In this document: positions 22,271 to 64,000 of the stretch, piece after piece | Layout of the letters: each line of letters starts with the position of its first letter | Position numbering within the stretch: the first letter of the stretch is position 1 | Assembly: GCA_001692895.1 (NCBI GenBank) | Contig: KV748217.1 | Coordinates: forward strand, 496,001 to 560,000 | Reading direction: 5' to 3' | DNA length: 64,000 bases | Source of the DNA: Cenococcum geophilum 1.58 | Taxonomy: Eukaryota > Ascomycota > Dothideomycetes > Gloniales > Gloniaceae | Position numbers and translations under genes: made by a program | The notes under the pieces: model-generated | Seen by the model: the letters and a program-made list of their open reading frames with translations, nothing else | Told to the model about the DNA's origin: nothing | Database searches by the model: none

Positions 22271-22440
22271 GGGTATAGCATCGGCAAAATATGGTACCCT
22301 ACCAATGGCCTCAATGGTTGGTGGTTGACGCAATTGGCGCGCAGTTGAGGGCATTTGGCAACTCGACCGACTAGCCTATGTCGTGTTTTTTTGACACGCA
22401 GCCTGCAACCACAATTGTATTTGGAGCCATCCACCTCTTT
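22271..22440. other. Short island without RIP damage
   Basis: Composition is suddenly balanced, with many CA and TG dinucleotides, between mutated copia leader and mutated DNA. It contains CCAATGG/TGGTTGG and GACGCAATTGGCGCGC-like blocks. A 63-codon minus frame over it has no protein features. It could be the left terminus of the inserted block or a short late insertion. Confidence 0.45.
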
Positions 22441-24100
22441 TATACTAATAGTATATTTTAGATAATAAACAAAGGCTACTTTAAAGCTATTTATAAGGCT
22501 AGCAAGGCAAATTGTATATACTTCTTTATATAATCCATTATATTGTTTTAAATAATTTAATATAATATCCCAACTGTTTTATAATATATTCTAAAAGTAT
22601 AAGACCTTTCCTGCTCTCCCTGTGACAATAATATACTATAAGTATTTAGCTTTACTAGCATAGCATATATATATAGCCAAAAAGTAGCTACTAAGAGTAG
22701 CAGATATAGGCCGAAAGAAAGGTAGATTAAGAGCTAGTATATATAATAAAGAAGCCGCAGTTATCCTGTAGGAGAGTATGGAAAGTCCTACACCTAATCT
22801 CCTACTAAAAACTTTACCGGCTCCTCTATACTAGAGTCCAGAGTATATATTATAAACTTTATATACTACTCCTTATTCTTAATTAAATTTAATATTGCTT
22901 TTCTGTTACTATACTAGCTATAGCTGTTCTCTACAAGGCTGTAGTACTGCTTAAATTATACAAATGACTTATTAGATTTAAACCTTTCCGGCCTAGGCTT
23001 ACTGGTTCCTATATTTAGGATAAAGTGGTATACTAGGGCGGAGGATGTATATTCTACTGAATTTAACAAACTTAGCTAGTTCCAAAAGTTGAATTAGTAA
23101 ATATTGTAGTAGTAATAGGGCCCTAGATTTTTTAGCTTACTCTAGGGCTCTTCCTTTGAGACGGACTTGGTGGACTAGTCTGGCCTACTCTAGAGCTCTC
23201 TATTTAGGACAGACTTAGTAAACTGGTCTGGCCTACTCTAGAGCTCTCCCTTCGAGATAGACTTAGTAGATTAGATAGTATAGCCCGGCTTACCAATAAA
23301 TAGCCTAAGTTAATAATCGCGTTAGTTTTATTGTCGCTAAGGCTTATAAGGAACCTCTCTTTTGTGTTATCGCTTAGATCCGCTATAAGGTTGTTAAGGT
23401 TATCTTTGTATAGGTCCTTAATAATTTCTATAGTTAATTAATCCGGTATTAGGCCTGTAGCATATTTAATAACTGCGGGCTAAAGCTATAGCTAGATTCT
23501 AGATTGCCGTTTTCTAGATATCTAGTTCTAGCTGCCTAAGAGGTTAGTATAGGCTTCTATAATGGGTTAGAGAATAATAATAGGTAGTAAAACACTAGAT
23601 ATACACTAACCGCTAATAACAGTGCTATAAAAGTTGTTTGTTTCCTTAGACCTAGTTCTATACTCCCTAATTGTATAATATATTGCTGTTAAAATAAAAG
23701 CAATAGTGTTACTGGTAAGCTTTTTGAACATATTATAAGAGCAGGGTAATTAGGTAAGGCCGTTTCTTCCTCTACTATAAAATATACTAGCTATGCTAGC
23801 AACTATCGCGTTGGAACGGAAGCGGTTATCACTTAGCTATTAACTTTTATTAGCATTTTACTAAATAGCATGGGTAAAATACCTTTGTGTAATCCAGCGT
23901 AATAAAATTATAATTAGTTAGTAGTTCCACGATTAGTTTAGGCGCGTCATTGAACCCTAGCCTATATACCTCCCTTATAACTATATGAGCCTTTATAATT
24001 ACGTGGTTCCTAAAGTTCCCTATTGCGTTAAATAGCTGTATATAATATTAAGATTGTTAGTAGATAATTTAATATAATATTTTTAGTATATAGATACCTT
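22441..24100 (-). pseudogene. Unrecognised minus-strand coding relic with 48-bp repeats
   Basis: The minus strand has protein-like segments broken by RIP stops, for example NHVIIKAHIVIREVYRLGFN and TLDYTKVFYPCYLVKC (about 23860-24050). A 48-bp tandem repeat lies at 23136-23280. I recognise no domain. It may be the distal part of the same gene as the minus-strand relics to its right. Confidence 0.35.
23136..23280. repeat. 48-bp tandem repeat, three units
   Basis: Units begin CTTACTCTAGGGCTC (23136), CTACTCTAGAGCTC (23185) and CTACTCTAGAGCTC (23233), each followed by a GACTTAGTA-type block and TGGTCTGGC. The 48-bp period is 16 codons. Confidence 0.75.
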
Positions 24101-24518
24101 ACGAGCGGATACCGGGTTAGGAATACGATTAGCTTTTTTTTGCACTGCTTTTGGCTGCTTTAAAATAGCTTTTAATTATGCCTTTTTTATTATATCCTTA
24201 ATAAGGCCTAGAAAGCGGTCGAACTATAGGTTAATAAGATGCCCGTTACAAGTCCTAGAGTTAGTTACTAGCCTTACTAGTAAAATAGACCTATAAAGCG
24301 TAAATATGGGCTCATGTCTCTTAGGTGGGTTTTCTTTTGTGCGTCGCCGTTATAATATTTAGAGGTACTCTTCTCTTACCTATATCGCGGCAGTTAGGTT
24401 AAAATCGTTATAGTCCAACTTGTTTTTACTTTCCCTAGTGCTATCTAGGTCCCCTTTAGATTAAACACTAGATTGGTGTACTCTATATTAGAGGGAGGTC
24501 ACTTGTTTCGTGGACGAA

Positions 24519-24704
24519 GCTATATTAGGGTTTAGGCGAATACGGCTTACTAGGGAGAATGTAAAGCTAAATATTGGTTGTTTACGCGATAAGGTTCGGA
24601 TTAGGCGTGCGGGAGAGTATTTTAAACTAGTACGCAATTGTTTACGTAGTAAGGTATGGATTGGGCGCGTGGGAGAGTATTTTAAATTAATACGCAATTA
24701 TTAA
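24519..24704. repeat. 60-bp tandem repeat in an oddly intact patch
   Basis: Two units with exact 60-bp spacing (TTTACGCGATAAGG at 24581, TTTACGTAGTAAGG at 24641), plus a diverged third unit before them. Each carries GGGAGAGTATTTTAAA. The unit is 20 codons; frames on both strands (plus 24510-24704, minus 24488-24697) stay open, which the multiple-of-three period partly explains. Confidence 0.7.
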
Positions 24705-25018
24705 GAGCCGGAGGTATATTGCGAAGATGCTGCTTTTTATAGCGGTGGGCGGTTAGATAGTAAAGAGAGTGTTCTGTTTACTAGGGCTTGCCGAGTGCTA
24801 AATAGTAGAGGAGACTATTAAGTATTATAGTTAGACTCTGGTTATATATAAAGGTATAACTTACCTTAACCAAAAGATTGGGACTTTGCGTCTTTAACTG
24901 AGCTAGTTCTACTGCTAGATTATTAACAGATTTAGTAAATTTATTAATATTTGGTTGTTGTCGTTTTGTAGAAGAAGCAGGTATAGACTTATAGTCACTA
25001 TCCTTATTATTGGAGATT

Positions 25019-25320
25019 ACCCTTTTTGGCTAGAGGCGGCTATGTATATTCTATATATTATTAGCTAGCTTAATATATTATATACGACGTTAATAGGGTC
25101 TATTATATGCCTGCTTCTTTTTACGCCTAGATATAACTAGACTAGAGTCGCTATTCTTATTATTAAATATTACCCTTTTAAGCCGGAGGCGGCTATGTAT
25201 ATTCTATATATTGTTAGCCAGCTTAATATATTATATTTAACGTTAACGGGGTCTATTACGTGCCTGCTCCTCTCTACGCCTAGATATAACTAGACTAGAG
25301 TTATAATATTGCTTATTCTG
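25019..25320. repeat. 153-bp direct repeat, two units
   Basis: The block CCCTTTTxxGCxxGAGGCGGCTATG recurs 153 bp apart (GGCGGC at 25035 and 25188), followed in both by CTATATATT, GCTTAATATATTATAT and GCCTAGATATAACTAGACT. Differences are largely transitions. Confidence 0.75.
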
Positions 25321-26389
25321 GCTGGGTTCCACGTGCTTATTCTGGCTAGGTTCTATATACTCGTCCTGGCTAGGTTCTACGTGCTTGTTCTCCGTTAGCG
25401 CGTTCTTCCTTCCGTTAGCTAGGACGTGGGCAACTCTTAGTAGTAGGCTAGGTAGAGACGTAAGGTTAATTGTACTAGTTATCCTTATTTCCTTATCCTA
25501 CGTTGACTTAAAGTAGGGTTCTTGCTACTAGTTTGAGTGTTTAATAATGCGTTTTTATATTTACCTGCTATAGTAACACTCTTATATTTGCCTAGTTAGC
25601 AGAAGGTATAGCTTATAGCTAGAATAGGTTACCTTGTGGCTGTTTTTATAATGTTTAGGGCGTATATAGATTAATAACTTGAAAGAATGTATACTGGTAT
25701 GGTATATATTGGACTAATGGCAGTATTAGTAGGAGTATTATTGCTATGGTGCTTGCAAATAACTTAAATAGGGGTGCATTTGTTGTAATTAGCTGCTAGT
25801 TCTAACTGGTTGCGGTTAAGCCGCGACCGCAACCTATTAACTCGCGTTAAGTTAGTAGTTAAGAAAATATTGTTGTATAGTTAAAGATTGTCTAATACTA
25901 TTTGCTATTATACGCGAAACTGTTTTATTCTATTAGTATATCCCTTAGTAGATACGGTATGCGTGTACGAAAGGTTAAACGTTAATCCCAGCAATAAAAG
26001 TAGTAGGCTGGTAAGGCTCGTGTCTGAATTTAATAGGGAGGTATCTTATTAAACCACTTTACCTACCTAGGGCGCTGGCTTTTAGATCCTGTACCTTATT
26101 CTGGTTTACTTACACTAGGTTTAATACCCGTCTCACGCTTAAAGCAAAGCTTATCCACCTTATCCGTGCAGCTTGCTAGTATAGATAATGCTAGGGTAGG
26201 CACAGGCGGTATATAGGATAGTAATTACACTTCTATATAGTTATATTGCTATATTCTACACCCTTATATAACACCTAGTATTTCTACCGCAAATATCTAA
26301 TATTATTCTTCCGCGTCGTTAACCCCACCAGCCTATAGTAAGCCTAACCTATCCCCTACATATGTATCGCAATAGTAATTAAATTTAGT

Positions 26390-26990
26390 AAAATAGTAAG
26401 GAAAGCGTAAGTATAGATATAAGGATTGGGTGTTAGATACTAAGAGTGAGCTAGAGACGGTGTTAATATATATTACCCTAATAAGTTTACTAAAAAGAAT
26501 GGGTATAAACCTTAGGCTTTATTATCTAATCCCCTTAGGCGTTTTAAGAATGCTGGATAAGTTATAAAAATATCTCGGGTTATATTATTCTAAGACTCCC
26601 TCGCCTAATAGTATACCGAGGGGCTTTATTAAGCTGTCTACCTTTATATATGGTAATCTATTAAACTAGTAAGTATTCTGGATAAAGTAGTGGCTTTAAG
26701 GCGCATAATCTATGCTGTGGTTATAGTTGCCTTTACCTTTTTTATTGCGGGTTAAGGCGTAGAGTAAGGGCTCTTTTTTGACTAGGAGAGGTTTTTTGGG
26801 ATAGCTGTGGGTCGAGTATCGCCTTGGTATTAACCCGTTTACTAGTTCTACCTATTCTTATATATATAGAGTGCGAGTTGTCTAGTAAAGGCAAGGGTGC
26901 GGAAATAGAGGGTAAGTGATTATATTGTTTTTGGCTGGTAGCGTAGACTATAAATACAAGTTAGTAACGCTAGCTTAACTTTAAGTAGTA
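26390..26990 (-). pseudogene. Unrecognised minus-strand coding relic
   Basis: The minus strand shows an extended protein-like frame with NRKKGKGNYNHSIDYAP-type and LIKPLGILLGEGVLE segments followed by YNPRYFYNLSSILKTPKG. It probably continues the gene that starts at 27732, after a frame break or intron. No known motif. Confidence 0.35.
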
Positions 26991-27732
26991 ACCTACTTGT
27001 TTTTCTTTGTTCTATTATAAATAAAAACCTATCCATTTCTTATAGAAATATATCCTTAACTATACTGCGCCATTTCTCTTTGTTTATAAGCTGAATTTGT
27101 CCTCTAGCTATCTTATTGCTAATATAGTAGCAAAGCGTTTCGCTTTTAGGGTTAAAGTTAATATCCTAGCCTAGTATATCTACAAATATATTGAAGCTTA
27201 GATTATTAACGTGTATGTCTAGAGCGTTATTCTTGCTAGTCGCTAGCTTTTGGGTTAGGATAATTATTGGCTCTTTGTTAGCTGCCCGCCGGATTAGTAT
27301 TATTATTGTTCTATATAACCTTAGTATTCCCTTCTGCCTTATTGCCTTTGGTATACCGGCTAGTAGATAATACGCGATAGCGGAGTGTAGGAGTACTAGG
27401 TTGCCTATTATAATTTGCCTAATAGAAGCCGTTTTGTTTATTTAACGCGTCGCGTTATAGCTATAGCGCTAGGTAAGCTATTTAATATATTTAGTATATA
27501 GGTTCTTAGGTAAACCTAGAAACACAGATGGGAATTTATTAGAGATTTTGTTTAATATTTGCCGTATTTATGCCTTGCTTATAAGGGAGCGTAGTAACTA
27601 TCTAAGGAGCCCATGTGTTGATATTTTAATTTCAACATTATAGTAGATTGTATTATATTGTTCGTTCGTAAGCCCTAGATCTCGCTTAAGAGTGTCTTTA
27701 GTATTATAGCTTAGGTCTGTTGTTAGTGCCAT
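26990..27732 (-). pseudogene. Unrecognised conserved reading frame, 5' part
   Basis: It starts at an ATG at 27732 (MALTTDLSYNTKDTLKRDLG) and stays protein-like for about 247 codons with only a few TAA/TAG at positions expected for Gln/Trp. Later segments include NKFPSVFLGLPKNLYTKYIK, RAANKEPIIILTQKLATSKN and SETLCYYISNKIARGQIQL. The length and low damage argue for a real gene once carried by the 20-kb block. It does not match a transposase, helicase or polymerase motif that I know. Confidence 0.45.
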
Positions 27733-28119
27733 AATTCTAAAAGCGTTGGAGGAGGTGCGGTAGGAAAGACGTCTTAATTACGCGCTAAGACTGATGTATA
27801 GAATTGTGTAGATAGGTATATTGTTTAGTTATTATATAAAATAATTGGTTAAATGTCTTATAAGAAATAAATAAGCGTATTAGCGAACGCTTTTTCACCC
27901 GCTATACCACCCAGACTTATAACCTCCTATCCCTTTTATGTCTCCGTTTATAAGCTTGATTTAGCACCCGGATTTATTAATACTTTTTTTTATATATTTT
28001 TTATATATTTATTGTATTATACTACGTATAATAATGCGCATATAGCCTCTAGGCTATAGTGCTATAGTTCTATATATATGAATCCTTTCTAGGCAGCTTA
28101 ATATATACTAGTAACTATG

Positions 28120-29360
28120 TTTACCAATACTTTAAGACGCCCAGTTAGCCTATGACTGGTAGAGCCTGGTTAGCATAATTAGAGGTCTTAACCTTTACTA
28201 AAATACTTAATATCCCTAATAAGGGCCAGAATATTATTAGCGAAAACGGAGATATTCTACTATAAGTTAATAAGATCTTAGGTTTATATGGCTTGATAGA
28301 GGAGTATTTAAGCTCTTAATATAATCTTTTAAGAGAAGACACGATTAAACCGTTAAGAGAGGTAGTAGGTTAAATTAGAGTAGACCCTTTTTAGTTTACC
28401 GGAATCTGGATATAGTAATAGAGTCGGTATATATAAACAGGTAAGTATACTATAATTCTAAAGCAGTCATCCCCTAATATCTGTAAGGTCTATACTAGCT
28501 TAGTAATATTTTTACCTTAAGGGCTAGTAATCTGCGTGGCGTTCTCACTTAGGAGAGTAGGGAAGATAATCCGTTGGGATTAGTTAAAAAGACTAGTTGC
28601 CGGGTCTTTAGTTGCTTTAACTCCCAAGACTAATAATTTTTGAACGAAATATATACTTATAATAGTGGCGGCGAGATCATTGGCCGTATTAGAATAGAAT
28701 CCCCTAGAGGTTAACTTATTCTTTAAGACCTAAAGATATTAAGATTAACTTATCCGTATTATAGACGATAGTTAAAGAACGAACTAGATTTTATGAAGTT
28801 AGTTGCTATACTATATTGGCATTATAAAAGCTAATAAGAGAGCCGTAAGTGTGTAATGTTTTCTAAATAAGAAGATATCTAACCACTAATAGATTCCCGT
28901 TATTAGAACACCTTATTTAAGTTTAATAGAATGTTAAAGTACTATAATACGTTATGAATAAGCCTTATACGGATCTTAGTTTAATTATAGCTATTAAGAA
29001 TACTTCCTTATTTGAGAATATTTATATTCTTAAAGACTGGTTAGATATAACTACTATAGGGCTTAATAAATCTTAAGCTATTATACTAAAACGAGTTCTT
29101 ATAAGGCGTCTTGCAATAATCTAAAGACCTCCAGGCACTAGAAAAATATGGCTTTAAAGGCGTTGCTTAGCAATATGATAATGGGAGATCCCCCCGTTAT
29201 TGTTATATGTTATATAAACTATACGCTAGACTAGTTATTTAGGTATATTGCTTAAAGTAATATATACTTTATAAAATTTCCTAGTACTTCTAACCGTCTT
29301 AATACTATCGCTTATACGGATAGACGATATTATACTGTATTAGGCGCCAGGGCCGTGGGA
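28120..29360 (+). pseudogene. ZNFX1-like SF1 helicase fragment (N-terminal half)
   Basis: Plus-strand translation with Q/W restored at stops gives the domain that precedes the helicase core in fungal NF-X1-finger/helicase proteins: PLREVVG.IRVDPF, SSPNICKVYTSLVIFLP, FSLRRVGKIIRWD, RLVAGSLVALTP and ARSLAVLEQNPLEVNLFF. Near 29180-29240 is GDPPVIVICYINYTLDQL, the segment after Walker A with the usual N-H-A-L-D-Q-L sequence altered. It ends in a minisatellite at about 29400, so motifs further downstream are missing. The host gene acts in RNA-dependent processes in other eukaryotes; here it is a truncated, mutated copy, possibly captured cargo. Confidence 0.65.
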
Positions 29361-29404
29361 ATAGGAAGAAGAGGAAGCGTTAGGGCTCCCTCTTTTTATA
29401 TCTT

Positions 29405-29760
29405 ATATTTTATTTTTTTATATTATCTTATATTATCCTACTATTGTCCTACCATTGTGTTATATTGTTCTATATTATCCTATATTGTCCTACTATTATA
29501 TTATATTGTCCTGCTATTATGTTATATTGTTCTACTATTATATCACATTGTCCTGCCATTGTGTTACATTATCCTGCCATTGTGTTATATTGTCCTGTCA
29601 TTGTGTTATATTGTCCTGTTATCGCCTTACTATTATGTTATATTGTCCTAACATTGTCTTGCTATTGTCCTGCCATTGTATTATATTGTCCTATTATTGT
29701 CCTACTATTATATTATATTGTCCTATTATTGTCTTATATTGTCCTGCTATTGTCTTAGTA
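29405..29760 (+). repeat. 21-bp minisatellite
   Basis: Units of the type TTATATTGTCCTGCTATTATG repeat at 21-bp spacing for about 350 bp, with related irregular units at both ends. It starts where the ZNFX1-like frame ends. The three overlapping open frames here are products of the repeat. Confidence 0.85.
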
Positions 29761-29969
29761 CTGCTATATACTTTTTACCATTTACTAAGATTATGGTTGT
29801 GGGTATTTGTCGGCTAGGATCCGGGTAGTAACTCTTAGCAGTAATTTTACTGCCTAAATCTCTTATAGATTAATTGATTGGCGTAGAGCCGTTATATCAT
29901 AGTAAAGCCATGTTTAAGCAATCTATATTATAATCCTTGGCATAGTATTATATGTGGAAATATTCAATC

Positions 29970-30100
29970 GTTAGATTTAGGAAGGTGTTTATATTTTAAT
30001 TAAATTTATAAGACTATAACTAAGGGCCTTTATGGCGCAGTGGTATAGTAAGTTCTATAATTGCTTTAGTTTGGGGTTGCTTAGTCACTATAGGAAAGTT
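29970..30100 (+). repeat. Short repeat with tRNA-like A box, copy 1
   Basis: The stretch TTTAGGAAGG...AAATTTATAAGACTATA is followed by GGCCTTTATGGCGCAGTGG, which resembles a tRNA 5' end with A box. A second copy lies about 490 bp downstream. A SINE-like retroposon is possible; a clear B box is not seen. Confidence 0.35.
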
Positions 30101-30464
30101 GTAATGCTTGGCGTGGTGTTAAACTTAAGGTGCTTTGCCACTGCAGTAGTAGAGATATAATAGATTAACTACTTACTGAAATATAGCGCCCCTATTGCTA
30201 TAGTAGCCACTATAGTAATAGAGATACCCTATATTTATAAATTTAGATTCTATATATAGTATAGCTTGCGAATTTAACGCGCTTGCCGATCTGGAGGAGC
30301 TTTTAGATTAGAAAGTCGCCAGATTAACCAAACGATCGCGTTAGAATCAGATTTGAGCTTCAGCTCGGATATATTCTGCGGCCTTTAGATTTAATCTGAA
30401 GTCGCAACCAAACGTTCCCTAAGATTTAATGTAGGGATCTCTCCCTAAGGATCTGGTTTAATCG

Positions 30465-30600
30465 TGAGGTTTAGGAAGGGGTTATAATTTAGTTAAATTT
30501 ATAAGATTATATTCTAAAGTCCTTGTGGTATAGTGGTATGGTACATTTTACCTCTTACTATAATTTAGAGCTAGCCTAACGTAATTAAAACTCGACGTGG
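30465..30600 (+). repeat. Short repeat with tRNA-like A box, copy 2
   Basis: The stretch TTTAGGAAGGGGTTATAATT...AAATTTATAAGATTATA is followed by GTCCTTGTGGTATAGTGG, again like a tRNA 5' half. It matches copy 1 through the leader but carries a different tRNA-like head. Confidence 0.35.
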
Positions 30601-30744
30601 AAGAGCCGATATGCTTAGTATATAGTGCTAAGATTTCGTTAAATGTATAACTTTGGGCGTTACGAGACACGTATAAAAATACGAGCTTAATTTAGAGCCT
30701 TACTAACGCCTAATTTAATAGAAAACGACCTTCTTTTTAAATAT

Positions 30745-30840
30745 TTTTAATATTTTTAATACGCGATGAGTGGGAATTAAACCCGCTACGCCTGGGAGTT
30801 AAATACGCGACGTCCAATTGCTTAATCTGGCTAGGAGGCT
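30745..30840 (-). repeat. tRNA-related relic (B-box-like)
   Basis: The minus strand reads GCAATTGGACGTCGCG ... GCGGGTTTAATTCCCACTC, resembling the D-loop and the T-arm/B box (GGTTCRANTCC) of a tRNA. The acceptor stem does not pair, so it is not a functional tRNA but may be a tRNA-derived SINE head. Confidence 0.35.
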
Positions 30841-30854
30841 CGGCGGCGATGCAA

Positions 30855-31075
30855 TAGGGCTTAATAACGTAATAAGGCTCGACGGTGATGTAATAAAACT
30901 TAGTAATATAATAAGACTTAATAATATAATAAGGCTCGGCGACGTAATAAGGCTTAGCGACGTAATAAGACTTAACGATGTAATAAGGCTCGGCAATATA
31001 ATAAGGCTCGGCGGCAATGTAATAAAACTTAATAATATAATAAGTCTTAGCGATGTAATAAGGCTTAGGGCCGGG
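30855..31075. repeat. 18-bp minisatellite
   Basis: Units of the type GTAATAAGGCTCGGCGAC repeat every 18 bp with many transitions. Open frames on both strands here (for example minus 30737-31078) simply translate the repeat into six-residue units. Confidence 0.85.
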
Positions 31076-31079
31076 CAAT

Positions 31080-32200
31080 GAGGGAAAGATTTAAGGTTGC
31101 TTGGTTACTGATGCCTAATAGCAAAATCTAACGGTATAGTACTGCTATTAAGGTGTTCTAATACGGGTAGGTTATATAAAGGTTTTATCCGTGACATGTC
31201 TAATATATCCTAAAAGTCTGCCTTTTACTTGTCTTTAAGGTTAAATTTCTGGCCTATAATAAATTAAATGTTGTAGTTAGTAAGAGCACGACGAATAATA
31301 GTATATTTTGCCCTGTTGTTCTTAAAACTGTTAAATATAAAGTAATAGGTAGTCTATTAACTTATATCTGTTAGTACCGGCTAATAAAGTGCCTTTAAAA
31401 CGTACTAATATTAATAATAGCCCTTTTATTTTATAGTATAATAAGCTTAATAGTAATAGGGTTTTAGTCCTTATAATTAAGCACATTTATCTAGTAGAGC
31501 TAGGTTTACTAATTATTCCAGTCAGTATTATATTATAGGTTAATTTAATATCTTGCACTAATAGAAAAAGGCAAGAGGTAGATTAAATAGAATAATTAGG
31601 GTACGCTTTTCTTCGCTATTAGGGATTTTATATAGACGTTGTATAGCGTATAGGTAGGAGCTAGTGGTCGTTAAGACGTTATAGGTAGTAGTAAAAGTTT
31701 TACACGAGATAGTAAGATCTTAAAAACTATTACTAACGGTTCCCCCTTATAGCAGATAACTACGTATATACGCTATAACTATACAATCGGCAGACAAAAG
31801 CGGTAGTTATAAACGTTAGTTTGTCTATTCTAATGCTGTCTTACTTTTTATAATAATTCAAGATATAGAGGGAGCTTTAGTTATAGGATAATCCTCTTAT
31901 ATACCAATTAGGCTTTTGGAATAATAAAGATGGTATATATATATAGTCTATTAGTAAAGAGGATATACCTTAACAGGAATTGTTAATGTATATTAGGAAC
32001 GAGAGTTAGTAGGGTTATAGGCTAGATTACTTAATAGGTGTTAAGGTAGTTAGTAGCCGGAGTAATATTAATCTGGATAAAATTTAAACTTTTTAAGGTT
32101 TAGTTAGTTATAAGGTGGTTAACACTAAGATAATATATTATAAAATATTAAATAGTTATATATTGTCTATATATATATATATTATACTAAGACATACTCT
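31080..32200. other. AT-rich DNA, nothing recognised
   Basis: RIP-mutated sequence downstream of the minus-strand SNF2-like relic. It may hold that gene's 3' end. I see no repeat or domain. Confidence 0.35.
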
Positions 32201-32204
32201 TATT

Positions 32205-35200
32205 ACAGGGGGTCGCTGCTTTAACTGCACTAGCTACGCTATTTTTATTACATTATTATTAGCCTACTAAGTAGGTTGGGCTTTAAACACTTTATAAAAC
32301 TTATTAATTGTTATCCTTTTAGTTATTATATGACTCGCTAATATAACCATATTAATTGGGTTCCACTTATCCGTACTATACGTTATTAACGCAGTGACTA
32401 CTAGCGCTAGCTATCCAGATCTAGCAGCTTGGCCAAATACTTGCACCTTTATATCTACTATTATCGCCGGTTTAAGTAGATAGACTTTATGCGTAGAGAC
32501 CAAATTCAGACCCTTTTCTCTAACTCTTTGGTTAATAATAAGAAACTGGACCACGTTATTTTAGTAAAGACCGCCTATTAGAATACAAAATGCTTTATAA
32601 ATATCCTCCTAGTCTTTTAGGGATATCCTAGACTCTATCTAGTAAACAGTTAAATATTTAGACTGGCCGAGCCTTTTATAGAAATACTATATTATATTAT
32701 TAGTAATAGTTTACTACTAGTCTAATAGCTAACTTATAAGGCGTAATAGCGTATATGCCGCTAGTTCGTAACTGCTAAACAGTAGTCTCTTATTAGGATT
32801 CCTTTTAAGTACTTTATTAACGTATTTTATAATTCTATTTAGTTTCCTAGAGTTAGCAATTATACTCTAATTCTTCCAAAGTGGATTCTTATCTAAAGGT
32901 TTATCCCATTTTTCGCTGCGGAACTTATTAATTATCTACCTTAGCTTTATTCCAACTTTTATCTTATCCTTCCACTACACATCCTACTACTTATCTCCTA
33001 CCTTAGCTAGGCCTAGAAAGATAGCAAAATTTTTTAATAAGCGACCAGCTCCCTCCAGAAATTAATCTATATTAAAGATAGGTTCTTTTCCTTTTCTTCC
33101 TTTAGCTTTCTAGTGTCTAAAAGCTTTATTTAGCTATTCGAAAGCTTCTAAGAATACTCCACGCTAGAGCTTCTTAATATACGGTTTAAATATTAAATTG
33201 TTTATTATATAGCAGTCTTAGTAGACAACTAGTGGTAGCTTATTAATTACCCTCCTATTAAACTATCGGTCTTCCCCTATCCTACGTATAATTAAGACCT
33301 TTATAATTAAAGAGGAGCATTCTTTAAAGCCTATAATAACCTTATTCGGAAGAGAAGAGTAATTAACTACTCTTAGCTTTTTATATTTAATTAACGCTTT
33401 AACATTACAATTATTAATTAATTTTGTATTTAGGGAATCCGTCTAATTAGGGGCCCTAAAAATTTCTAAGGCAGGAATTAGACTTATAAAACCTTCGCTA
33501 GTTAGCGTACCGGAAGTAAACACTACTAAAGGTCGAGAGGTATAGTAGGTTATTTTACTATTGCCGTCCTTATAAGACTAGCCCGGGCGTTAGAAGCGAG
33601 GAAATACTACTTAATCATTATATACTTGTTTGGCGATTTTTATTAGATAACCTATCTCTAACCTATCTATATAGAACTCGTCGGTAAAAATCCCACTAAC
33701 GATATAACGAGGACTACCGTCTCTATAGAGATTAAAAATGGTTTTATACTATTCCTAAGTGGTCTAGGTTGTTGCCTAAGTTTATAAGGTCGTAATTATA
33801 AGATATAAAGCCAATCTTAGGTCCATTTTCCACCAGACTACTTCGCCTTCTCCTTTATATTTTATAGGTTTAAGAATATCCCTATCTTTATCCGTAAAAT
33901 TATACTTCTTTATACTGGACCTAATAAAAGCCGTATAGCGCATACGGACTTATAGTTTACCTCTAGAAATAAAATTATTTAGTTCTAAGGTCTTAAACCA
34001 TAATTTAATGTCTTTAACCGCTTAGGGTAGTAGATTCTATCTAGTAATATATATAGTTGGTCCTACTAGCTAGTTAAGAAATTTTCTGGCGATACTTCCC
34101 TTAATATAATAGTACTGTAGCATGCCATCCATTTAACTCGGGTATTAGGTGTTAGGCGGCTGCGGGTATTTATCTATACTAGGGGCAAGGTAGAGACTTT
34201 TATCTCTACCTTTTTAATTTTTCTAATTAAGCTAGTTAAGGTTAATCTTGGTTATTAACACGCCGGTATACCAGATTAAAAGCATTTAAAGTATCTTACC
34301 TAAACCTATTGTATCCGCAAGAAAGGTCCTACCTAGGGTTATATAATTAAGAAGAGTATAGGTAACACTAAGCAGCTAATATATCTATATAGCTTTACCC
34401 TTTTTTATACCATATAAGTAGAAGGTTATATCTTAAAGAGTATTGCGAACAGTTAACGGAAATAAGAGGAACTATAGCACTTTTACCTATAATATTGGGT
34501 TGATATATGCTTCTCGCACATCCTTAAGAGGTGATCAACATCCTAATTAACCTCCTTAATTTTATCCTTATGCTCGTCTTCCGGTTCCTTATTAGTTAAA
34601 ATAGGGTTAATTAAGGCGTTAAAGTGGCGGCGCTCCTATGTGCGGTTAAGATTAATTTCCTTAATATAAATTAGGTTAGGGTTATTATTTATATCCTTAA
34701 ATAATATATCGATAAATATTTCGCGATTAGACTTTGGCTATTTATTACACTATCCTTTTATTTTATCCTATGGCATTATCTTAAATATTTATACTTTGTC
34801 TAAATCTACGCCTTTTAAGAGCTCTAATTTATCTAGTAGGGGCTAGTCTTTACTACCACGGGTCTAGCTATAAGCAGTTTTAATTATAGCCGGCCGTACA
34901 GCTAATAATATATTAGTAGGTATAAGTAGCGTGGACTTTAGGGTTAATATAGGCTTTAGATTTAACTGCTTAGGTATAGGTAGCGTAGACTCTAAGGTTA
35001 ACTGCTTATAACTACTTTAACCTAGGGCAGGTATATCTATTCTTCTCCTAGTCGGCACTGGTCGTGTAATATTAGGGTTAGAGTTAGACTTAGAATTACT
35101 TTTATTAAATCTTATGCCTATAAACGTATATTAGACAACTCTATATAATATTATATAATCTTATAAATTATAAAGTCTTTTACGCTTTGTAATCCGATTA

Positions 35201-35517
35201 GGATCTTTAACTCTAATTATAATTATATTAAGTCCGGCCTTCTTTATAAAAAGCACCGTAAATGCCAGGTTTATGTAGTTAAGAATTGGTGTACCAGTGG
35301 TTAGATCTACTATAGTTTAGCCATCCCTATATTTATCCGCTGAGAAGTTTTTACTTATTACGGCCTATAGCTTATTATATCCACAGTAATATATATTAAT
35401 TTTCTCTAGAGAATCGGATAATAGATGCTTATACTTAGTTTTTAATATAAATCCATATAGAATGGGGGCCCTAGTGAATAGCGTTTTGTCTAGGTAACTG
35501 TATATAGTAAAGCTCAT
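32205..35517 (-). pseudogene. SNF2-type helicase relic
   Basis: The minus-strand frame starts at an ATG at 35517 (MSFTIYSYLDKTLFTRAP). An N-terminal region of ~400 codons is Ser/Pro/Lys-rich. The Walker A region near 34290-34325 reads FLADTIGLGKIL (SNF2 type, LADxxGLGKT). FTSGTL near 33520 matches motif III (SGTP). The C-terminal RecA-like domain ends with LLKPAIIVDIKVQVFGQAAR and SGQ near 32400-32445, matching the Q-A-x-x-R-x-x-R-x-G-Q motif VI. Order and spacing fit a SNF2 ATPase of ~1,100 residues. RIP stops and lost residues (e.g. T to I in Walker A) make it dead. It is divergent from chromosomal remodellers and may be transposon-borne. Confidence 0.7.
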
Positions 35518-36480
35518 TTTATAGAATAGTATAGGTGTAGTATTTAGCTATTATAGGGCTTTAATAGACAGATTACCGAGTACCTAGGCAGCCTTAGAGG
35601 TTACTCTTAATCTAGATAAGTCAACAGACTACTTTCTAGAAGATAAGGCGCTACGCTTTTAAATAGCATTAGTTATTATAACCTCCACGCCTTTACATCT
35701 ATTGGTCGTTACGTGTCGCTATATAGATTTTTTAGCGGCGATAGCGAAAGCTTTAAACTCTAATAGTAGATCGGATCTCTTAAACATGTGCCTATACTTA
35801 GTATTAAGAAGGTTAAAGACTATACGCTTAACTCCATTTTATATAGGTCCGGACGTTAGCAACCTACTACTAAACGCTTTATTAATTTCGCTAGCACAGT
35901 ATTAGAGGATTTTATTATATATTTTTTTGTTAATTATAAGTCCTTACTGTAGCTTTAGACCACTTATTTACAATAAGTTCTTATTAGTTACAGTAGTTAA
36001 GTACTAACTAGATTCTAGATATAGCGCCGCTATTATAGTTAGGGACCCTATATATTTATAAGCGGGTAAAAGCTTAATATAGAATAGTATAGAGTAACTT
36101 ATAAAGACAGTAGAGCGGATAATATATTAGATAATTAGTAATAATATAACAAGATAATCCTAACAGTTATAATAAGAAGGTATACCAATGGTGTTAACTT
36201 AAGATAATAGCGGATGCTAATAAGAGTAATTTAAGAGCGATATAAGAAATAGAATAGAATGCGAGTCTTAATATAAGAAGTAGGATAAAATACAAGCTTT
36301 AATGTAGGCAGTAAAATAAAATATAAGACTTAGAGTAAGAAACGGAACAAAAGGTACATGGCGAGATAAGATATAAGATTTGCGCTACTAACTAAGTGAA
36401 TAATAATAAGAGAGCTGATAATTCTATTCTTTATGTTGTAACTAGTTAGTAAAGCAGCTCTAAAGAGGTAGGGAAACAAG
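35518..36480. other. AT-rich spacer upstream of the SNF2-like relic
   Basis: This contains a 67-codon plus frame (35702-35905) without features and otherwise mutated sequence. It may hold the former promoter of the minus-strand SNF2-like gene. Confidence 0.35.
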
Positions 36481-36815
36481 TTTAGGACAATCTAAGACAT
36501 TAAAAAATGTCCAAGATTATACAAAAAAGTGAAATATAATATAGCATTTTATTCCGTAAGTGTAAGGTAAGGCAAAATGCATAGTAGAGAGAGGTAGGGG
36601 GATAATCTAAGACATTATAAAAGGTCCAAGATTGTATAAAAAAAAGTAAAATATAATATAGTATTTTATCCCATAAGCGTAAGATAAGGTAAAGTGTATA
36701 GTAGAGAGAGGTAGGGGGATGATCTAAGACATTATAAAAAGTTTAAGATTGTACGAAATAAAGTGAAATATAATATAGTATTTTATCCCATAAGTATAAG
36801 ATAAGGCTTTAGGAT
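36481..36815. repeat. ~116-bp tandem repeat, about 2.8 units
   Basis: TCTAAGACAT recurs at 36491, 36606 and 36723, each followed by a GAAATATAATATAG / TTTTATCCCATAAG block and, in the first two, GTAGAGAGAGGTAGGGGGAT. Differences are mostly transitions. It lies between the divergently transcribed SNF2-like and transposase-side genes. Confidence 0.85.
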
Positions 36816-37363
36816 ACCCTTTTACCTAAAGTATAACCTATTTTTAAGCTATGTTACTAATAAAGCAACTTTTTTTTAGGTAAGCTGTTACGTCTATTAT
36901 ATAGGCAACCTAAAACTAGTATCCTAGATCCTACTTATAGCTACTACGCCTTATATTAAAGATATTCGCTAGACTTATTTATATATAGGTCCCGTAGTCT
37001 AAATTATATATTAAGCTATCTATAACACAGCTATTGTTACTCTAGCCCTATAATACCGTACTCTTATTTATACGCCTTTTTCTTCTATTTCCTGCCATTA
37101 TCCACTTAATCTTTTAAACTTCTATAACCGCCTAAACCGATACCATAGCCTCTTTATCTTTAAAAACACAACTATATTAAGCTTAGCTTAGCCTCAATTT
37201 CTCTTTAAAAACACGGCTACGTTAAGCTTGCCTTGGCCTTAATTTCTCTAAATACATACTACCTAGAAATATATCCTGCCTTATATAACTACTATAAGCT
37301 CTACCTATAATATAGCGTCTAGTGCCCTAGCGCGGAGCGGGCTCTCTTAAAAGCCGCATTATA
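36816..37363. other. AT-rich spacer with a 45-bp direct repeat
   Basis: A block containing TTTAAAAACACAACTATATT and AAGCTTAGCTTAGCCTCAATT occurs twice about 45 bp apart near 37155-37245. Otherwise nothing is recognised. Confidence 0.4.
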
Positions 37364-38060
37364 ATGCCTTTTAGAGACTAGATACCTAAAGCTTCTTCAG
37401 CCGCTGCGAATAAGGGAAATGCTAATATATAGATTAATGGTGGTATACCGGGTGGAGATGGCCCTAATCTTTATAAGCTAGGGTGGGATATTAAGGTTAA
37501 GCTAGCCGATCTATAGACTAACCTAAATAACCTATTCTTTTCTGCTAAATCATTTAAAGAGCTTTAACTGTATTTTAGCTCTCCGCACCCTAGTAGTATA
37601 TAGGCTTATACTAATATATCTGTTTAATAGGAAACTAAAGGTATTAAAAGGAATTCTAGAAATAAACTTTCAAAAGCCGTTAAAGATAAGTAGTTAGCCT
37701 ATAAAATATAGGCTTTCTATTTAGTTACTTCGCGGGCTTTAAATTATTTATATTATTATTGATACCCGTTATCTGGCCTAACCCTTTAGCGTTACCCTAA
37801 TAATAAATGTAAGACTTTTGGGCGGCAGCTTAAGTTGGATATTAGTTAGAACTCTATATACCTAAGACTGGATATTATAGTTCTAAGTGCTAACTTATTT
37901 AGTTATCTTAACTTAACTAGTACTACCCTTAATCCTCCCTTTTTTCTTGCTACGGCTTATATAGAAATAACGGAATTATAGGTCCGGATAGCTAATATCG
38001 TCGGGCTCTGTAATATCAGTAGTAAATAATATCTTTGCTGTAGCTATAGTCCTATAGCTA
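37364..38060 (+). pseudogene. Unknown ORF relic upstream of the transposase
   Basis: It starts at ATG 37364 (MPFRD) and stays protein-like for about 230 codons with stops at likely Gln/Trp sites. Segments include NGGIPGGDGPNLYKLGWDIK, LNYLYYYQYPLSGLTLQRYP and LDIIVLSANLFSYLNLTSTT. It is on the same strand as, and ~0.6 kb before, the Plavaka-type transposase, so it may be an accessory protein or N-terminal exon. No motif recognised. Confidence 0.4.
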
Positions 38061-38099
38061 TCGCCTAAAAATACTATATATTATTGTTTAGATAGATAA

Positions 38100-38310
38100 A
38101 AGTTTTTTGGGTACCATTAAGTCTTTAGTTTATAGTTTAGCTACTTTAGACTCTTTTAAGTCCTTAAACTTGGTGTTAAGCTTAGTATTAAGCTAGTTAT
38201 ACTTATGCTTTAGTATCTAGTTTAGTTGCCTTAGACTCTTAAGTCCTTAAACTTGGTATTAAGCTAGTTATACTTACGCTTTAGCATAACTAGTTCTAGT
38301 AAGAAAATAA
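38100..38310. repeat. Imperfect direct repeat
   Basis: Two copies of a block with GTCCTTAAACTTGGT...TTAAGCTAGTTATACTTAYG and CTTTAGYAT lie next to each other. Intergenic between the unknown ORF and the transposase. Confidence 0.5.
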
Positions 38311-38689
38311 GAGGTATACTTTTAGCAGCTATAAAGCTAAGCTACTTAGATTAAATACTGGTAATTAACCGTTAGTACTATAATATGTACTCTTTACGCC
38401 TAGAAATAATACTACATTATTTAATATATAATTAGCGATAATACAGCGGAGCTGTCTATGGTGTTCTTATACCCCTAAGAGTTACGGCGGCCTTTACTAA
38501 CACCTATAGTACTATAAAAGGCGGCTGCCTAGCCACTAATATATTTATAAAAAAATATGTAAAGAGAGATATAATACTTGTACGTTTATTGCGGCCTAAC
38601 TACTTATAATTTATAATTAATTCTACCACTCTAATTGGTTAGATAACGCGTAATTATAACTAGATAGTATAAACACGGATACTAACAAG

Positions 38690-41610
38690 TACGCTCCGGT
38701 GGCGGTAGAATATAAGCAGAATACCCACCTGGTGCCTCCGTGCGGTATATTATATTAGAAAAGCGTCCTATTATTATTATTATTACTTAAAGTAAAGATA
38801 TTTAAAGTAACTAAGAATATAAAGGCGGGTAAACCAATTTTGTGCGAGACTAATAATAATATATAGTAAGTTAACCAGACAATTTTAGATATTACTATAT
38901 AATAATATAATAATAGCCAAAGTATACTATACAATCCTTTTTATTTAGAGTTTAATTACGCCTTTTTAATATAGCTACACCGCATTCGCTATATAAAGGG
39001 AGACGTTAACGTACTGCTTAAAGACACCCGCCTTAGCCCACTTTATAGCCTACTTAGCTTTTAATCTATAAATTAATAGGAGGAATTAATTACCGCTATT
39101 TTATTTAGTATATAAGATAAATAATAGCTCCAATTAGAGTGTAAGGTAGAATTAAATATTAAAGGCTCTAAGTAGAGGAAATACTATATTCTTTACTAGG
39201 ATGTTATAAATATAATTACCTTTCTAATTAGCTATTAACCCTTTAAAGATATACTAGTATATGCACTAAAGAGACTCTATAATGCCGATAACTACTAAGT
39301 CTATAATAAGCTATATAGCAGTAACTAGTAGTAAAAGATATAAGGCAAGGTTCCTAGCGGTGCTATAGTAGTTCCTATACTTATAGCAGTTAATAAGACC
39401 CAGCTAATAATGCACTATAGTAACAAATCGGCCTGGCTGGTATATTTTACTATCGGTAATTTTAACTAATAAGTTTAACGCTAACAGACATCCCCCGTAA
39501 ATATTCTTATTGGTTTTATGCCAGTTATTAAAGAAAAGGATAATAATATAAAAAGTAAAGCATATTATAAGGTAATAAGAACTATACTTAAATATAAGTC
39601 CTACTTTAGTATTCTAACGCTATATTCCATAAACTAAAATATAATAGTAATTAAGCATCTTACAGAAAGCAGCATAGACCTTTAATGTGCGGATAATTTT
39701 ATATAATGATATTATCCAATTATATATAGAATAATGGCAGACTATAAAGAATAAGTGCTGCTTATAGGTGTTAAAAGCCGATAGCACTATACTATGTGCT
39801 AGGTCCCCCCTTTAAAGCGTAAGAACTTAACTGAGAAATAATACCCGCTACGCACCTATAAGGAGACGAGAAGATAGATTAAACGCTAGTAACTAGAGAA
39901 TATTCTTCTATTCTTAAATAACTAGGTATACCCGATAGAATATTTTACGTAGCACTATCGCCTATTTAATATCTATAAGGGCATAATAGTAGATGTTCTA
40001 TATTAGCTTCTAAAGGGTATTATTATATAACTTATTAAATGGGTACGGAAACTGGTAGGTAATATTATCTAGCTAAAAAGAAAGAGAAGAGGGACGAAGA
40101 TAACTATAATAAATATATCTACGGAGGCTTAGCTTAATTAGCGTTTTAGATAAGTCCTAGCTTTTATAGGGCTAAAACGGTTTAATAATCTGTTATTTAA
40201 TAAAGTTACTTAATAGACAGGTAATAAATAAAAAGCCATAGTTTGTTAACTTGTCGCTATACTAGCCCCACTACTGTCGTCTAGGGAACTATATGCTATG
40301 CATTTTATAAGAGCTGTATATAACTTCGTTATTATGGCTTAGTATCGCACCTATAATAAGAAGATACTATGATATATGCACTACGCCCTATATTAAATTA
40401 ATATACTTAAAGGCGTATTTTAAAGTTTCCGTCTAAAGGTAAAGGATTTTAATATGGGCCATTTTAATATACTAAAATTCTATGCCCTTATACATTTTAA
40501 GGAAAATATCCGCCTGTATAGATGCGTAGATGGGTACTATACTAGCGCAAATAGCGAAGCTAGACACCGTTATATTATTAAGGCGTTTTATAACTTAATA
40601 AATAAACGGGATTCGCTATCTTAAATCTGCTCTTATAATTTAAGATAGGTAGTAGTACTAGTAATAGAAGACGAAATAGCTTTTATAAATAGTAATTCTG
40701 TACTATAGTCTTCCTAGCGTCTAGAGGTATAGGTTACTTAATTAATATAGCATTTGGCAGTTATAAAGCTTTGGTGGCCTTTGGAAGATATAAATAGGGT
40801 AACAGATCTTGTCTAGAGGCGTCTTAGGTTAAAGACGTGGCTTTATATATCTTATATAGCAAACTGCTACAAAATCCTAGGGTTTCTAGACGGCATTGTA
40901 GTATTTGTTTAAGAGTATAGGTAAAAACTATAAGGCGAATGTGCCTAGAACTCCGATATGGACCGGAAAGAGAAGGATCCTTTATGGGTTAAGCGCCTGC
41001 TTATTAAAATACATCTATCTATCCGCTGTTAAAAACGAGACGGAAAAAATGCAACCGACCTTAAGGCCTAAATTAGTAAGGTAGTACGTTGCGCACTAGA
41101 TTGGCAATGTTCTAACTAGTAGAGGTATAATTACGTATAGGTCTAAGAGTATATAAATAACGATGACCGTATTAGAAAGGGCCGCATACTATTAGGTAGA
41201 AGACTTGTGGGCCAGCTTTAGCTAATTGTTACTGTTCTAGATATTAAAAGGTTAGATAAGTATGGTGTATACGTATAGTATACTAGAGCTATAGTAGAGC
41301 TGCTTTAGCCATTAAATTATGGACTGCCGCATCCAACACACAGTATAGTTGAGGTGAAAAGGTAGCTGCGCTTAAGCGTAAATACTAGGTAAGTACTTAG
41401 AGGTGGTTGCTTTTATTTAATACCATCTATTCTACAAAGCGCGCATATTATTTTAGCCGCTACTTCTTATTTAGATTTATACTATATTAATAATTATATT
41501 AATTAGGACTAATATAATACTCTATACTTAAATAACTTTCTTAAAGAAGGAACCCGCATCGCGTTATTATATAGAAGCTAGAATAAATAGTAAAAGCAGC
41601 TAAGCTAGTA
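38690..41610 (+). pseudogene. Plavaka-type (CACTA-like, KDZ group) transposase relic
   Basis: Plus-strand translation with Q/W restored shows landmarks of fungal Plavaka transposases in order: GAIVVPILIAVNKTQLIMHY and NKSAWLVYFTIGN (about 39355-39460), ILIGFMPVIKEKDN, LCADNFIQ..YPIIYRIMADYK, GVKSRQHYTMCQVPPLKRKN (39765-39825), FNIYKGIIVDVLYQLLKGII (about 39970-40030; usually an E-G-x-x-x-D-x-L-H-Q-L-x-K-G motif), HYALYQ, MGHFNILKFYALIHFKENI and SANSEARHRYIIKAF. It ends in AHIILAATSYLDLYYINNYI near 41450-41510, typical of the C-terminus. About 950 codons survive. The Asp/Glu/His residues of the catalytic core are partly lost. It probably mobilised the block in which it lies. Confidence 0.75.
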
Positions 41611-41624
41611 TAGAACCTATATAA

Positions 41625-42125
41625 GACTATATGGGACTATATAAGATTGTATAAGATTATATAAGATTGTATAAGATTGTATAAGATTATATAAAATTAT
41701 TTTAATCCTAATATATATTATAAGCTAGNATACTATAGGCTAAGAAAATAGTAAAAATTTATTTNNGTAATTGGNATATAACTTTAAAATAATATATTAT
41801 ATTACCTTAATTATATGTTAAGGAATGTGCAGTTGGCTTTTAAAGTTGTTAAGTTAGTTAACTATGTGTTATTTAAATTTTAAGTTAGTTAATTGTATGT
41901 TAAGGAATATACAGTTAGCTTTTAAAGTTATTAAGTAGGTTAACTGCGTGTTATTTAACTTTTAAATATATTAAGTTGGTTAATTATATATTAAGTTAGT
42001 TAAGTTATATATTAAGTTGGTTAATTGCGTATTAAGTTAGTTAAGTTGCATATTAAGTTGGTTAATTGCGTATTAAGTTAGTCAATTGCGTGTTGAGTTG
42101 GTTAAATTGCATGTTAATTACGCGA
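41625..42125. repeat. Subterminal tandem repeats beside the transposase
   Basis: Three kinds follow each other: ATATAAGATTGT-type ~11-bp units (41630-41695), an ~85-bp unit with GTTAAGGAATGTGCAGTTGG present twice (41815-41975), and ~21-bp ATTAAGTTGGTTAATTGCGT units (41980-42115). Clustered short repeats next to a terminus are typical of CACTA-like elements. Four ambiguous bases lie at 41729-41775. Confidence 0.65.
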
Positions 42126-42180
42126 AACGCGAAAAACAAAGTCTACTTAAATCTCATCCTGCGAATATTTTCCCAATAAG

Positions 42181-42913: not shown

Positions 42914-43345
42914 CAGAGCCTTATGTAGAACCTTAGTAGAGCTTCGTGTAGAGCTTCGTGCAGAGCTTCGTGTAGAGCTTTGTGCAGAGCTTCATGCAGA
43001 GCTTTATGCAGAGCTTTAAGCAGAGCTTCAAGCAGAGCTTCAAGTAGAGCTTTTACAGAGCTTCGTGCGGAGCTTCGTGCAGAGCTTAATGCAGATCTTT
43101 GTACAGAGCTTCGTGCAGAGCTTCGTGCAGAGCTTCGTGCGGAGCTTCGTGCAGAGCTTAATGCAGATCTTTGTACAGAGCTTCGTGCAGAGCTTCGTGC
43201 AGAGCTTCGTGCAGAGCTTCGTGCAGAGCTTCGTGCAGAGCTTCGTGCAGAGCTTCGTGCAGAGCTTCGTGCAGAGCTTCGTGCAGAGCTTCGTGCAGAG
43301 CTTCGTGCAGAGCTTCGTGCAGAGCTTCATGCAGAGCCACGTGCA
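42914..43345 (+). repeat. 12-bp GAGCTTCGTGCA minisatellite
   Basis: Units of GAGCTTCGTGCA are nearly perfect from about 43160 to 43330 and more varied (GAGCTTCAAGCA, GAGCTTAATGCAGATCTTTGTACA) to the left. It is GC-rich and shows little RIP. Because the period is a multiple of three and no stop occurs, several frames on both strands are open; these are not taken as genes. It is carried inside the Mutator-like element. Confidence 0.92.
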
Positions 43346-43715
43346 GGCGTGCAGACGTGTAGATGTGCAGACGTGCAGACGTTCGTACGGGCGATCAATT
43401 GCAGAGACGTTTGTAGAGACGATTGTATGGCAATTGATCGATTGATTGTATGGGCGTTTATACGGGCGTTTTGTACGGGCGTTTATACGGGCGATTGTAG
43501 AACCTTCCTGGTATATTAGTGCTGCGTGTTAATAGAGCTTTGGAGCCTCTTATATAGGTAAAGAAAAGAGACTATATATATACATGAGGTAGGTGGGCCG
43601 AAACCGCTGATAACGATGTTAACGATAGGAGCTGACGACTACGACTTGTAATTGCCACTGTCGACAACGCCACTCAGTCAGTATTTGGTAATGGGAATCG
43701 ATAATAGGGCATTGA

Positions 43716-43965
43716 GTAGAGCTTCGAGCAGAGCTTCGAGCAGAGCTTCGTGCGGAGATTCGAGCAGAGCTTCGTGCGGAGCTTTGAGCGGAGCTTCCGT
43801 GGTGGGAGCTTTGAGCGGAGCTTCGTGTGGAGCTTTGAGCGGAGCTTCGTGCGGAGCTTCGTGCAGAGCTTTTGCAGAGCTTTGGTAGAGCTCCGTGCAG
43901 AGCTCTGTGCAGGTCTCCCCCTAAGCTTCGTTCCGCAGAGCTCTCGCAAAGCTCCACAGCTCTAC
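43716..43965 (+). repeat. Second 12-bp array, GAGCTTCGAGCA / GAGCTTTGAGCG type
   Basis: Diverged relatives of the previous unit with GAGCTTTGAGCGGAGCTTCG-type higher-order pairs. It is separated from the first array by ~370 bp with GTGCAGACGT and ACGGGCG repeats. Little RIP is visible. Confidence 0.85.
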
Positions 43966-63740: not shown

Positions 63741-64000
63741 TATATAGAGTTTTATAGTAGACATTATAGTAAGTATAAAGCTCTATATAGATCTTTAATA
63801 GAGCTCTGCGTAAAGCTTTAATGGAGCTCCGCGTAGAGCTTTAATAGAGCTCCGCGTAGAGCTTTAATAGAGATCCATGCAGAGCTTTAATAGAGCTCCG
63901 TGCAGAGCTTTATATAAAGCTTTAGTAGAGCTCCGTATAGAGCTTTAAGGGAGCTTCGTGCAGAGCTTTGTGTAAAGCTTTAGTGGAGCTCTGTGTAGAG
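63740..64000 (+). repeat. 12-bp / 24-bp GAGCTTTAATA-GAGCTCCGCGTA array, truncated by the window end
   Basis: Alternating 12-bp units GAGCTTTAATA(A/G) and GAGCTCCGYGYA repeat to the end. The unit is a close relative of the GAGCTTCGTGCA arrays inside the Mutator-like element at 42914-43965. Confidence 0.8.

Follow-up and report, generated by a model that had tools for sequence, protein, structure and literature searches.

Organization of the element

The window that we analysed, a stretch of 64,000 nucleotides from Cenococcum geophilum 1.58 (C42:496001-560000), holds a DNA transposon at positions 22279-42178, which has inverted ends of 14 bp and a target duplication of 2 bp, AG at this site. 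Its features, in window coordinates, are as follows.

22277-22278, no strand: left copy of the target duplication AG, from pairing the two ends of copies
22279-42178, no strand: whole element, 19,900 bp, from copy boundaries
22279-22292, plus: left terminal inverted repeat CATCGGCAAAATAT, from copy ends
23621-23878, minus: DUF6532 match (PF20149; frame examined 23300-24499)
27863-29255, plus: captured piece of a host ZNFX1-type helicase gene, from the DNA match to L066 (C16) and PF25396
29411-29757, no strand: tandem repeat tract (TATTGTCCTA-like), from the repeat scan
32183-34420, minus: SNF2-like ATPase core, with motif I at about 34295-34306 and motifs V-VI at 32393-32536
34450-35860, minus: stretch in a different frame that probably encodes the N-terminus of this gene, with the lowest fixed-stop density of the six frames and no profile match
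36485-36807, no strand: 117-bp tandem repeat, 2.8 copies, from the repeat scan
38930-41575 (about), plus: Plavaka transposase, from the Pfam match at 39158-40045, extended by aligning a relative with less damage
41807-42117, no strand: subterminal repeats, at the right end only, from the repeat scan
42165-42178, minus: right terminal inverted repeat, ATATTTTCCCAATA in the window copy and ATATTTTCCCGATG in less mutated copies
42179-42180, no strand: right copy of the target duplication AG, from pairing the two ends of copies

The subterminal-type repeats that the earlier note on this DNA had seen at one edge are the tandem repeats at 41807-42117, in which the motif AAGTTRGTTAA occurs seven times while being absent from the remaining element. 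No convincing Pfam domain was found in 24400-27900 or 35900-39000, and a tRNA search of the element, positions 30740-31090 included, was negative. Those positions form a tandem-repeat stretch in common with the flank of a second Plavaka type of the same genome (C30 type), mostly in inverted order. Outside the element, long 12-bp tandem repeats (AGAGCTTCGTGC) lie at 42938-43346 and 43712-43912, and the window ends in an array of related 23-bp repeats (63774-64000).

A single unit with many copies

When we searched the genome (177.2 Mb in 162 contigs), the three pieces of the block (left, middle, right) had at least 25, 20 and 20 near-complete matches, respectively, the window included; the searches score best candidates only, so that match counts here and below are those of the matches listed. 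These copies are 88-92% identical to the window copy and their outer ends fall at 22279 and 42178, which confirms the block delimited in the earlier note, whose edges were 8 and 2 bases off. Both ends could be paired and read in 16 copies, giving the end consensus CATCGGCAAAATAT on the left and ATATTTTCCCGATG on the right, with C/T and G/A variants. The inverted repeats and target duplication that the earlier note had suggested looking for at the two copia junctions are thus present in the window, with AG on both sides, and an exact 2-bp duplication was found in 15 of the 16 paired copies, a 3-bp duplication in none. The left flanks are TA in 12 copies, AA in two, CA in one and AG in one, a bias under which mispaired left and right ends would already give 8.27 two-base matches in 16; all four copies with a non-TA left flank nevertheless have the matching duplication, and the sole mismatch is TA/CA. 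In one copy (C22:1612006-1612300, L059), the left-terminal 230 bp are apparently inverted relative to the rest. No undamaged copy was met among those examined, so the coding capacity of the family is not directly visible.

The block had been proposed to be either one insertion or a stack of insertions. The mixed gene content, the one captured host piece and the internal tandem repeats would suit unrelated insertions that came to lie side by side by chance, but the same 19.9-kb order recurs in the copies together with the outer ends and the 2-bp duplications. The copies refute a stack, to which we give practically no weight, and leave a single insertion.

The window copy landed inside a copia element. 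A query made of the joined flanks (offset by one base at either edge) spans the junction on the copia piece at window 9514-7320 with 76.5% identity, extending 261 bases into the right flank. The flanks do adjoin there, as expected if the block splits contiguous copia sequence, although about 30 bp of that piece are missing right at the junction.

Transposase and classification

The transposase match (PF18759, Plavaka, plus strand) has an E-value of 1.9e-33 and 116.5 bits against a cut-off of 26.3, in agreement with the Plavaka-type transposase first recognised from the sequence. With stops read as Q/W, a less damaged Plavaka at C30:1712561, which has five stops, aligned with five element copies at 42-45% identity over 887 columns. 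Plavaka matches listed in the genome number 123. The C-x-x-C motif of the transposase is present in L061 and in the relative L064 (C30 type) and is altered in the window copy.

The CACTA-like/KDZ label suggested for the giant element did not survive. Membership of KDZ (Zisupton) is ruled out by a duplication of 2 bp, not 8 bp, and the KDZ family is absent among the Pfam matches in six frames of the window copy; membership of CACTA/EnSpm, with 3-bp duplications, is ruled out by the 16 paired copies. Passages of PMC12730594 describe PlavakaB of Agaricomycetes as having termini 5'-CATCA..TGATG-3' and target duplications of 2 or 3 bp, and move Plavaka to the CACTA/EnSpm side. The present termini, CATCG..CGATG, agree with that published rule in four of five letters. 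Our element thus has in common with PlavakaB, as described there, the Plavaka transposase, CATC..GATG termini and 2-bp duplications (2 or 3 bp in PlavakaB), while it differs in ending in CATCG instead of CATCA, in the strong repeat-induced point mutation (RIP) of its genome and in its accessory gene, which is SNF2-like here and, in some PlavakaB, an epigenetic gene for a TET/JBP dioxygenase. With CACTA/EnSpm it shares a related transposase, following the same passages, and CA..TG ends, but those elements, as described there, have 3-bp duplications and CAC ends where ours has 2 bp and CATCGG.

From the transposase family, the ends and the duplications, we infer that the element was moved by its Plavaka transposase in a cut-and-paste manner. 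Presumably it recognised the ends by binding them and placed the element into targets of 2 bp, mostly TA.

An SNF2-like gene on the opposite strand

The SNF2-type gene that had been noticed on the other strand runs on the minus strand from about 35860 to 32183. Over 15 copies, 11 of the 746 codons in its frame at 34420-32183 are fixed stops, compared with 21 to 70 in the other five frames; since this density is the lowest of the six, the frame is suggested to have been coding when the family spread. A GLGK motif lies near the start of the frame and motifs V-VI near its end.

The profile match of this gene is weak because of the mutations. When stops were read as X, Helicase_C was matched in three of 15 copies (best E-value 0.026-0.03) and SNF2-rel_dom was unmatched; when they were read as Q/W, Helicase_C was matched in seven copies (best 2.2e-4) and SNF2-rel_dom in three (best 2.1e-3). 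In that same Q/W test two unrelated families also appeared in three of 15 copies (best 0.0071 and 0.032), and read-through frames of an unrelated kind reached an E-value of 0.0024, so the SNF2-rel_dom match is by itself no proof. Aligned by hhalign to three SNF2-type proteins encoded in this genome, the gene's profile scored 37.4, on motifs V-VI.

The reverse-strand frame might instead encode some other long protein, its likeness to a helicase having arisen by chance in a mutated frame. Profile searches of PDB with the frame gave no match, and an SNF2-rel_dom value of just 2.1e-3 in three copies, with chance families close to it, would be expected under that explanation. We nonetheless regard it as very unlikely, given that the two halves of the SNF2 fold occur in the right order, that the GLGK motif is rightly placed and that none of 60 column shuffles reached the score obtained on motifs V-VI (highest 27.5).

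A genome search with the SNF2-like gene gave 64 matches (the best 64 of 79 candidates), with stops in every one, and among these scored matches no relative outside the element family was found up to an E-value of 10. A recent capture of the gene from the host was therefore rejected, no host relative being present among the scored matches. Ordinary SNF2 genes do exist in the genome, where PF00176 has 72 matches when each exon counts separately. At C161:10401-13900 (L067), on a contig of 14.7 kb, an SNF2-type frame has stayed undamaged over 963 residues; as a close relative it was discarded, since only a 25-residue stretch aligns.

Gene content across the genome

Among the 65 ZNFX1-type matches listed, 54 have an SNF2-like match on the opposite strand within 60 kb, and 50 have both an SNF2-like match and a downstream Plavaka, 28 of them at the canonical spacing of 10.4-11.1 kb. 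Nine others have a Plavaka 3.3-3.8 kb upstream (C30 type) and no SNF2-like match within 60 kb, and the remaining two are the host gene itself and a match standing alone. Conversely, of the 64 SNF2-like matches listed, those without a ZNFX1-type neighbour number 12 within 12 kb (mostly broken-up copies), three within 30 kb and two within 60 kb. The separation into parts that would have spoken against a common element did not appear, as judged by this co-occurrence. With the same ends and order, 15 of 16 duplications lying outside the 19.9 kb and 28 canonical loci, the transposase and the SNF2-like gene belong to one element, as the earlier note had supposed.

It could be argued that an independent SNF2-bearing element inserted long ago in an ancestral Plavaka and has been dead weight since. 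The SNF2-like gene does lie on the strand opposite to the transposase, and the nine C30-type loci do lack an SNF2-like match within 60 kb. However, 62 of the 64 SNF2-like matches have a ZNFX1-type neighbour at 60 kb or less, and the SNF2-like frame has the lowest fixed-stop density of the six, which suggests coding at the time of spread, so we consider such an old composite unlikely.

The C30-type Plavaka resembles our element in its Plavaka match and its ZNFX1 piece (nine loci) and differs from it by the missing SNF2-like match. A lightly damaged representative was observed at C30:1712000-1719000 (L064:6432-9068, L065), with part of that same ZNFX1-type host gene downstream. A search for the ends of this type found none, only AT-rich pairs.

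The conserved but unrecognised frame of the earlier note proved to be DUF6532, matched in six of six copies (E-value 2.2e-6 in the window). Of the 76 DUF6532 matches listed, 35 belong to the element family, 15 have a split-type Plavaka of the same genome upstream, and 26 have neither, one of which (C48:539254) lies just outside the distance cut. In the split type, which thus also combines a Plavaka match with DUF6532, the domain is on the same strand and downstream, at 4.0-4.7 kb in 14 of 15 loci (e.g. C64:386050-390954). Because of this same-strand position about 4 kb downstream at the 15 split-type loci, DUF6532 may be a second Plavaka protein, and, with the matches in the element family included, it may be a recurrent Plavaka companion. 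Plavaka and DUF6532 domains are named together in a passage on Ganoderma in PMC8955403. On our reading, two genes accompanied the transposase in the element family, one for DUF6532 and one for an SNF2-type ATPase.

Capture of host helicase DNA

The ZNFX1-like relic is real as a match (PF25396 at 28500-28730, plus strand, E-value 2e-12), but it is a captured, frame-broken host piece and not the element's helicase. At the DNA level, window 27863-29255 matches the host locus C16:2570537-2571805 (L066), where a frame of 679 amino acids with AAA_11 and AAA_12 lies remote from Plavaka matches; the host ZNFX1-type gene is apparently intact. The comparison gave 206 substitutions over 1,130 positions, of which 184 are host C/G to element T/A, 13 the reverse and nine transversions. 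Fourteen of 15 copies have 15 deleted positions in common, including a run of 13 bp directly downstream of the P-loop; the fifteenth has 40. The piece measures only about 1.4 kb, carries the 13-bp and 2-bp deletions and is without a complete helicase core, and its reading as the element's own helicase is ruled out: it is a host fragment, frame-broken by a shared deletion, and most likely passenger DNA. The match to the host crosses frame-interrupting, intron-like stretches (GT..AG by reading, unannotated), and the retention of these apparent introns indicates that genomic DNA was captured and not a transcript. The family has thus taken up part of a host ZNFX1-type helicase gene at the DNA level. 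In the C30-type relative the piece is shorter and 803 of 858 positions are identical to the host; the two pieces have only a minority of the non-RIP differences in common.

Going by the ZNFX1 name, the L066 gene is a putative orthologue of SAD-3/Hrr1. A passage of PMC3759863 presents SAD-3 and Hrr1 as silencing helicases. By analogy with the Zymoseptoria case in PMC6710886, the multiplied fragment could in principle endanger the host gene via RIP. The host gene itself is without sign of RIP, reverse transitions being 13 in the window comparison and 9 to 14 in those of other copies. Passages of PMC6710886 report a hAT with a captured histone H3 in Pseudocercospora fijiensis and an amplified DNA methyltransferase in Zymoseptoria tritici. 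As described there, those cases are alike in that a host sequence was multiplied and its copies were wrecked by RIP, with the original intact in the H3 case; they were captured transcripts, whereas here genomic DNA, a Plavaka carrier and a ZNFX1-type helicase gene are concerned. An element that used its own SNF2-type motor to escape or use silencing, while its ZNFX1/Hrr1/SAD-3-like fragment at more than 60 places exposed the host gene to RIP or small-RNA attack, so that host silencing was opposed on two fronts, seems to us improbable as a whole.

RIP and the age of the family

Differences among copies are transitions almost without exception, with transition to transversion counts of 13,663:34 in the left third (28 pairs, eight sequences) and, in two other sets, of 65,313:271 (105 pairs, 15 sequences) and 6,166:8 (10 pairs, five sequences). 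C/T changes were counted by column as CpA 2154, CpG 1235, CpT 754 and CpC 253. Composition ratios at 23 examined loci agree with RIP by commonly used thresholds. Given these near-exclusive transitions, the 9% divergence reflects RIP after what would be a burst too recent for transversions to have built up to any extent. In the host-derived piece, sites changed in all 14 of 14 copies were 39 of 151 for CpA, 25 of 110 for CpG, 7 of 123 for CpC and 5 of 145 for CpT. With these shares of CpA and CpG sites altered in every copy, part of the RIP damage may predate the burst, or some sites may be saturated.

Taken together, we favour, with a probability of roughly 0.83, a family of giant PlavakaB-like elements that had an SNF2-type gene specific to them and a fragment captured from the host, and that went through a burst followed by RIP. 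The family would have spread to some 50 places in one burst, after which its copies were ruined by RIP. An SNF2-type gene in a Plavaka is unreported in the open-licence literature searched, and the word 'snf2' is absent from the main text of PMC12730594. More tentatively, the SNF2-like ATPase may have worked for the element as a chromatin remodeller, acting on the element's own copies or on targets, where it would open packed chromatin or keep the element expressed.

Implications

Where divergence of 9% is almost wholly due to RIP, sequence identity says little about age. Fungal DNA transposons carry TET/JBP enzymes that are thought to lift methylation marks, according to passages of PMC12730594, and an SNF2-type motor in the Plavaka group, if true, would be a second, different chromatin tool on a mobile element. 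After the histone H3 and DNA methyltransferase described in PMC6710886, the captured fragment adds a case of a host gene that was multiplied by a transposon and brought within RIP's reach, and the gene multiplied here is of a type linked to RNA silencing (SAD-3/Hrr1, in the account given in PMC3759863).
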